64,000 nt of DNA. It comes from Tunturibacter gelidoferens (GTDB lineage: Bacteria > Acidobacteriota > Terriglobia > Terriglobales > Acidobacteriaceae). The notes under the pieces are model-generated. The model had not been told where the DNA came from and searched no databases. It saw only the letters and a program-made list of their open reading frames with translations. Where the stretch lies: NCBI RefSeq assembly GCF_040358255.1, contig NZ_CP132938.1, forward strand, positions 2,666,001 to 2,730,000. The letters run 5' to 3'. Made by a program: the position numbers and the translations under genes. This document shows, one piece after another, positions 47,447 to 48,603 of the stretch. Position 1 is the first letter of the stretch, and every line of letters starts with the position of its first letter.

Positions 47447-47593
47447 GGAGTGAGGCCTTTCTTCTTCGAATGAAGATCGCGACTTAATTTCTGATGCCGA
47501 TTTCGACTTGCGCAGATGCACCATCACTGTTTACCGGCGAACTTGCATGCAACCGGACCTCGGGAGTAGTCTGCTTTTACACGGGAAAGGAGG

Positions 47594-47659
47594 ATGGTCC
47601 AGCCTATGAAAATTGATGGAAGATGTAGTTCAACGCAACGTGAGGTGACTGAGGCTTAG
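47594..47659 (+). CDS. Possible leader peptide upstream of thiG
   Basis: AAAGGAGG (47586-47593), the strongest Shine-Dalgarno sequence nearby, touches ATG 47594; an in-frame ATG 47606 lies 12 nt after it and would encode MKIDGRCSSTQREVTEA. Both end at TAG 47657-47659, within the first stem-loop of the thiG leader. A Cys codon sits mid-peptide. No homology is claimed. Confidence 0.35.
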   Translation: MVQPMKIDGRCSSTQREVTEA

Positions 47660-47816
47660 AGCGTCCATAGCTCTAGTCCTGGCGGTCTTTGTACAAAAGT
47701 CCACGCCGAGGCCCAGTCCGAGTATGGACGCCTCAGGTCAATCTCAACAGTTCACCGCCAGACGGCTCGCTGCTCTCCTTAGAGTGCGAGCCGTTTGCGT
47801 TTACCCCGCACTCTAA
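47646..47816 (+). promoter_or_regulatory. Structured thiG leader with two exclusive hairpins
   Basis: Stem 1: TGAC-TGAGG (47646-47654) and CGTCCATA (47662-47669) pair with TATGGACG (47723-47730) and CCTCAGGTCA (47731-47740). Hairpin A: ACGGCTCGC (47762-47770) with GCGAGCCGT (47786-47794), plus CTCT/AGAG inside. Hairpin B: TTAGAGTGCG (47779-47788) with CGCACTCTAA (47807-47816). A and B share bases 47779-47788, so they cannot form together. B ends 16 nt before the thiG ATG, near its AGGAT. No TPP riboswitch core is present. The rest of 47447-47832 holds no other gene. Confidence 0.6.
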
Positions 47817-47832
47817 CGGTAGGATATTAACC

Positions 47833-48603
47833 ATGAAACCTCTGGTGATTGCAGGACGGGCCTTTCAGTCGCGGCTTATCGTCGGTACTGGCAAGTACAA
47901 AGATGGCGCAGAGACTCAGGCTGCTATTGAAGCCTCTGGAGCCGAGATGGTGACCGTCGCGGTTCGAAGGGTCAATCTCGATCGAACGAGTGAGTCACTG
48001 CTGGACTTCATTGATCCGAGGCGTTATTTTCTGTTGCCCAACACGGCTGGATGTTACACCGCCGACGAGGCGATTCGAGCAGCGCGACTGGGGCGCGAAG
48101 TGGGGCTGTCGGATTGGGTCAAGATCGAGGTGATCGGCGATCAGCAGACCCTCTATCCGGATGTGCAAGCTACGCTCGAGGCGACCCGCGTACTGGTCAA
48201 AGAAGGGTTCACCGTTCTGCCGTATACGTCGGACGATATTGTCTTCGCCAAGCGGCTGATTGACGCTGGTGCGGCGGCTGTTATGCCTCTGGGCGCACCC
48301 ATCGGCAGCGGGCTTGGGCTGCAAAATACGGCCAACCTGCGCATTCTGCGGGAGCTGATCACCGAAGTGCCGTTGATCGTGGATGCAGGCGTTGGCACTG
48401 CCTCTGATGCTGCGGTCGCGATGGAGTTAGGCTTCGACGCCGTGCTGATGAACACCGCGATAGCTGCGGCGAAGGACCCCTTGCTGATGGCCGAGGCGAT
48501 GCAGCACGCCGTGCTGGCAGGGCGGCAGGCCTTTTTGGCGGGCAGGATGCAACGAAAACTCTACGCTACGGCCAGCTCCCCGCTTGAAGGGATCTCCCGC
48601 TAG
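47833..48603 (+). CDS. thiG: Thiazole synthase
   Basis: A 256-aa TIM-barrel enzyme making the thiazole phosphate of thiamine from 1-deoxy-xylulose 5-phosphate, dehydroglycine and ThiS thiocarboxylate. The Schiff-base Lys is in [17 protein letters not shown]; other landmarks are [29 protein letters not shown] and [15 protein letters not shown] 47833 is chosen because homologues begin here, with AGGAT 8 nt upstream. thiS, thiF and thiH are not adjacent. Its leader is structured. Confidence 0.95.

Follow-up and report, generated by a model that had tools for sequence, protein, structure and literature searches.

The question raised by this locus is whether the structured RNA encoded just upstream of thiG (identified as such by Pfam PF05690) in the 64,000-nt stretch of Tunturibacter gelidoferens DNA analyzed here, hereafter the window, belongs to that gene. 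A first-pass annotation took positions 47586-47832 for a thiG leader, an attenuator or an uncharacterised riboswitch built from a leader peptide and 2 mutually exclusive hairpins, A and B. The features it listed are present, but its bounds have to be redrawn, with a predicted promoter from 47543, an RNA start near 47579, and an end near 47802. Judged by its sequence, the interval 47543-47802 is a self-contained gene, comprising a promoter, an RNA, an extended Shine-Dalgarno (SD), a 17-codon ORF, a structured domain, and a terminator, and the element is a small RNA gene separate from thiG, ending at about 47802, ahead of it (Table 1). We consider it probable that this stand-alone, single-copy small RNA gene is translated and represents a diverged acidobacterial branch of the Ms_IGR-5 (RF02471) type, in which completion of the ORF by a ribosome and folding of helices P0 and P1 would be mutually exclusive. 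Computation supports a separate unit with its own promoter and terminator, a conserved frame, covarying helices, and homology. Shuffled sequences fold less stably than 47586-47845 (z = -3.2). An Rfam scan of the window matched no family, at gathering cut-offs or at E<=10, and tmRNA and 6S RNA are ruled out as the element's identity, since the genome's copies of both are located elsewhere. Searches of plasmid and phage collections found no relatives of the window element, and a literature search found no acidobacterial sRNAs of its kind.

Table 1. Features of the element and of the thiG start in window coordinates
Feature	Position	Strand	Remarks
Small RNA promoter, predicted	47543..47572	+	-35 TTGCAT (47543-47548), -10 TAGTCT (47567-47572)
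Stand-alone small RNA, putative	47579..47802	+	Start ~47579 and end ~47802 inferred; conservation from promoter to terminator in relatives
Extended SD	47585..47604	+	Nearly complementary to the entire 16S rRNA 3' tail; contains a 1-nt insertion
Short ORF, MKIDGRCSSTQREVTEA then stop	47606..47659	+	Frame open with a start codon in 141/142 distinct copies
GAGGTG, SD-like	47643..47648	+	Invariant; 9 nt before the stop codon
P0 5' strand (GGUGACU)	47644..47650	+	Within the ORF; helix 1 of A2/A3, 95% of cells paired, both sides changed
P1 5' strand (GAGGC)	47651..47655	+	Helix 2, 95% of cells paired
P2 hairpin (TAGAGC...GCTCTA)	47657..47676	+	Helix 3; includes the stop codon; both-side changes in 4/6 pairs
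P3 stem region (GTC.TGGCG...CGCCG.GGC)	47676..47714, approximate	+	Helices 4 and 5 of A2; both-side changes in 8/8 pairs
P1 3' strand (GCCTC)	47730..47734	+	Helix 2
Conserved single-stranded AATCTCAACAG	47740..47750	+	Between P1 and P0 3' strands; persists in most distant copies
P0 3' strand (AG.UCACC)	47749..47756	+	Helix 1 of A2/A3
Hairpin A, intrinsic terminator	47760..47802 (hairpin 47760-47796)	+	Strong hairpin, then T-rich sequence
TAGGAT, probably the -10 element of a separate promoter for thiG	47821..47826	+	Near-leaderless thiG, ATG 47833

The promoter of the window copy is itself a weak match to the pattern found in relatives, TTGAC-N17/18-TAnnnT with a fixed 7 nt from the -10 box to CAC, for which 109 of 142 distinct copies score at least 8 of 12 as against 12% of shuffles. 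The RNA 5' end reads ACACGGGAAAGGAGG. The AAAGGAGG that had been claimed ahead of the short frame is indeed there (47586-47593), and the extended SD forms a duplex of -26.1 kcal/mol with the genome's own 16S tail, compared with -15.7 kcal/mol for the best of the 43 long-ORF starts in the window; the mean over the 142 distinct copies is -26.6 kcal/mol.

The short frame was also correctly called, running from ATG 47606 (or an in-frame ATG at 47594) to TAG 47657-47659 for a length of 17 or 21 codons, with its stop codon inside a stem-loop. Among relatives, the frame that contains GAG GTG runs uninterrupted between a start codon close to the SD and a stop in 141 of 142 distinct copies, the other frames in 0 of 142; the single failing copy is a mislocated site. 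Stops are TAG in 131 copies, TAA in 6, and TGA in 4. The ORFs are 11-22 residues long, variable in their N-terminal half and constant in a C-terminal EVxxx-stop pattern; before EV, 26% of residues are Ser and 10% Cys, and 242 of 391 Ser codons are AGT. The spacing from GAGGTG to the stop is kept in 139 of 141 copies, and the GAGGTG core gives a duplex of -11.9 kcal/mol with the 16S tail. A frameshift reading past the stop was rejected, since open lengths differ between copies and no constant frame is seen.

That the region encodes a conserved structured RNA, as had been proposed, is borne out by conservation of both the ORF and the structured domain, with covariation. Paired cells in P0-P3 amount to 89% in a 97-copy alignment and 86% in a 50-copy alignment, with 16 and 15 pairs, respectively, changed on both sides, the alignments (A2/A3) being fitted to the model and thus biased toward the proposed structure. 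All of 500 shuffles fall short of the observed values, and with slid partners 28-50% of cells are paired. In the first RNAalifold structure, of alignment A1, part of the fold was an artefact of the alignment; P2 and P3 are manual additions that were then tested. Some copies (L048, L086, and L261) carry large inner-loop insertions, for spans of up to ~340 nt, and retain the ORF and P0.

A covariance model built from the family (R1) matched in 45 of 297 genomes, and a second model (R2) in 69 of 396, namely 48 of 50 family genomes and 21 of 346 others. There is always a single copy per genome, and the element reaches at least 9 further families of the phylum, thinly. The covariance search on relatives, which had been suggested as a check on the leader reading, finds the element conserved, but neither a tie to thiG nor hairpin B is conserved with it.

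The best reading of its ancestry is that the element is a distant relative, or diverged branch, of the actinobacterial Ms_IGR-5. One distant acidobacterial copy (L279) scores 50.6 bits with RF02471, above the cut-off of 45, and 2 others score below it (L278, 42.6 bits; L277, 39.3 bits). Across the phylum, RF02471 matched 12 of 297 genomes at E<=0.001, 1 of them above the cut-off, and its matches in 2 family genomes (G050 and G075) fall exactly on the element. Reciprocally, the acidobacterial R2 detects RF02471 members, a Nocardia copy (L307) at 37.6 bits and L308 (MT835602) at 41.8 bits. With RF02471, a search of the whole genome at E<=10 did not pick up the window copy; hence its membership would run via intermediates, as a diverged branch and not as a member by Rfam's rule. 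The 2 groups share the 5' ACAC.GGAAGGAGGUGGUCC, an ORF ending in GAG GTG, 3 codons, and a stop, and a terminator immediately after. The Nocardia ORF has the same ending, MDSSRTREVAVR then stop, and the RF02471 consensus read in the same frame ends in KLIDLWTCEVAAR and a stop; by eye, Nocardia also has a P0 (GGUGGCUG/CAGUCACC). They differ in that many copies of the window family have a 1-nt insertion in the extended SD, in their inner helices, and in that Rfam lists an sRNA whose consensus pairs stretches other than P0, which is not drawn. The record of L308 (MT835602.1, 801-976), an unverified "Bacteriophage sp." entry, holds an Ms_IGR-5 copy of 76.9 bits and may reflect a prophage or host contamination.

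Likenesses to other RNAs are looser. The consensus of CC2171 (RF01867), a Caulobacter sRNA, begins with GAAAGGAGGUGAUCCAGUG, as does the element, and matches L280 weakly; however, the 24.7 bits reached there, against a cut-off of 75, come essentially from the 5' part only, making this a lead and not a membership, with CC2171 a possible third branch. In leader-peptide attenuators such as rbfL (PMC13009471), translation of a short ORF likewise competes with RNA structure or a ribosome site; an extended SD is known in S. aureus. Unlike such attenuators, the element has no constant downstream gene and has its own terminator.

Is the ORF translated? Transcription of Ms_IGR-5 has been reported in actinobacteria (PMC8079986, PMC8780764, PMC10454040), as have ribosome-protected reads (PMC4974804), and the authors of the latter study described the ribosome-protected noncoding RNAs, as a group, as lacking clear evidence of translation; our literature search on Ms_IGR-5 found no mention of an ORF. 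Because the frame is conserved in 2 phyla and these transcripts and ribosome reads are published, translation is likely. If so, the RNA would bind the 30S subunit via the extended SD and then be translated into a tiny peptide, whose last codons would double as the 5' strands of P0 and P1. The invariant GAGGUG sits where the 16S tail of a ribosome that has reached the stop codon could pair with it. With the 5' strands of P0 and P1 inside the ORF, geometry implies that a ribosome at the stop would exclude both helices, and this mutual exclusion means that translation should gate the 3' domain. Pausing may occur at the stop codon or GAGGUG; pausing at SD-like sites within coding sequence has been reported in Caulobacter (PMC4117421). 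The gating may be sensitive to the decoding of Ser/Cys codons or to ribosome supply, and the RNA may act in trans on putative targets. It is a more tentative proposal that there exists a ribosome-gated small RNA class common to Acidobacteriota and Actinomycetota, perhaps including CC2171, which would dock by the whole 16S tail, be translated, be held at the stop by an internal SD, and release or fold a trans-acting 3' domain according to translation.

The Ms_IGR-5 relationship, as read here, would place members of an actinobacterial sRNA family in a second phylum. It would also mean that a "noncoding" RNA of this type has a coding frame retained in both phyla. Such long-range conservation suggests that its role may be a basic one. 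Concrete, testable predictions follow from the extended SD, from the helices that overlap the ORF, and from the invariant GAGGTG with its 9-nt distance to the stop; Mycobacterium smegmatis and Streptomyces are among the tractable actinobacteria in which they could be addressed.

The same conservation of frame and stop could be read more simply: the element may be a plain mRNA for a functional micropeptide, its 3' structure stabilizing the message. The Ser/Cys-rich N-terminal part and the constant EVxxx end in 2 phyla would fit. We nonetheless think this unlikely, given that the peptide can be anywhere between 11 and 22 residues long, that the N-terminal half is variable, and that the constant end is fixed at the wobble positions of GAG GTG too, which indicates constraint at the RNA level. 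Less likely still is that the element mainly titrates or monitors 30S subunits by way of its complementarity to the 16S 3' tail. The -26 kcal/mol pairing and the second SD-like site before the stop are what such a function would use, but it would require very high abundance and leaves the conserved ORF, P0-P3, and the AATCYCAACAG segment unexplained.

A cis attenuator of thiG working through competing hairpins A and B is by far the least probable account: thiG often closely follows the terminator in this genus, but it has a separate promoter-like box, most loci lack it nearby, and conservation of hairpin B does not extend across the genus. The comparison covered 60 loci and 80 named ones (Granulicella, Edaphobacter, Terriglobus, Bryocella, and others). 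Of the 129 with a usable neighbor, 38 have thiG as the first gene downstream, 7 have it further along, and 84 have none within 3 kb downstream, and the next downstream gene is convergent in 53, all counts being approximate because ORFs were picked mechanically. DNA around the element matches in 100 of 150 family genomes as 2 separate blocks, one being the element and the other the thiG start. With its own promoter and terminator and an inconstant linkage to thiG, the element is neither a leader or attenuator of thiG nor a riboswitch. Attenuation by a leader peptide would require both conserved thiG linkage and conserved alternative hairpins, neither of which is found; a false thiG attenuator is thereby removed. 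Both hairpins can be drawn (A at 47760-47796, B at 47779-47816), but they are not a meaningful competing pair, and the A/B switch is ruled out. In every f1-family copy folded, A is a terminator, its hairpin and T-rich tail following directly after the ACC of P0 with variable sequence, whereas the 3' arm of B recurred in one further genome of this species and in none of the other genus members inspected, a comparison that covered all but the last 3 genus loci. The position 5' of thiG in the genus resembles that of TPP (RF00059) and other riboswitches, none of which matches at E<=10. The absence of a TPP riboswitch had been noted at the outset and holds (RF00059 has no match in the window at E<=10); none was found in the whole genome (G000) at E<=0.001, although the same riboswitch is present in 10 of 14 control genomes.

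As to thiG itself, nearly all genomes inspected have a TANAAT-like box ~7-9 nt ahead of its ATG, whether the element is adjacent or distant, so that a promoter downstream of 47800, the outcome named at the outset as refuting the leader reading, is predicted. The same box suggests that thiG mRNA may be leaderless or nearly so across the family; it is seen at 47821-47833 in the window and at L286-L305. Finally, 4 metagenome-assembled genomes labelled Verrucomicrobia or Rhodanobacteraceae (L161, L203, L184, and L189) carry the acidobacterial element, some beside thiG, and are probably mislabelled or contaminated bins.
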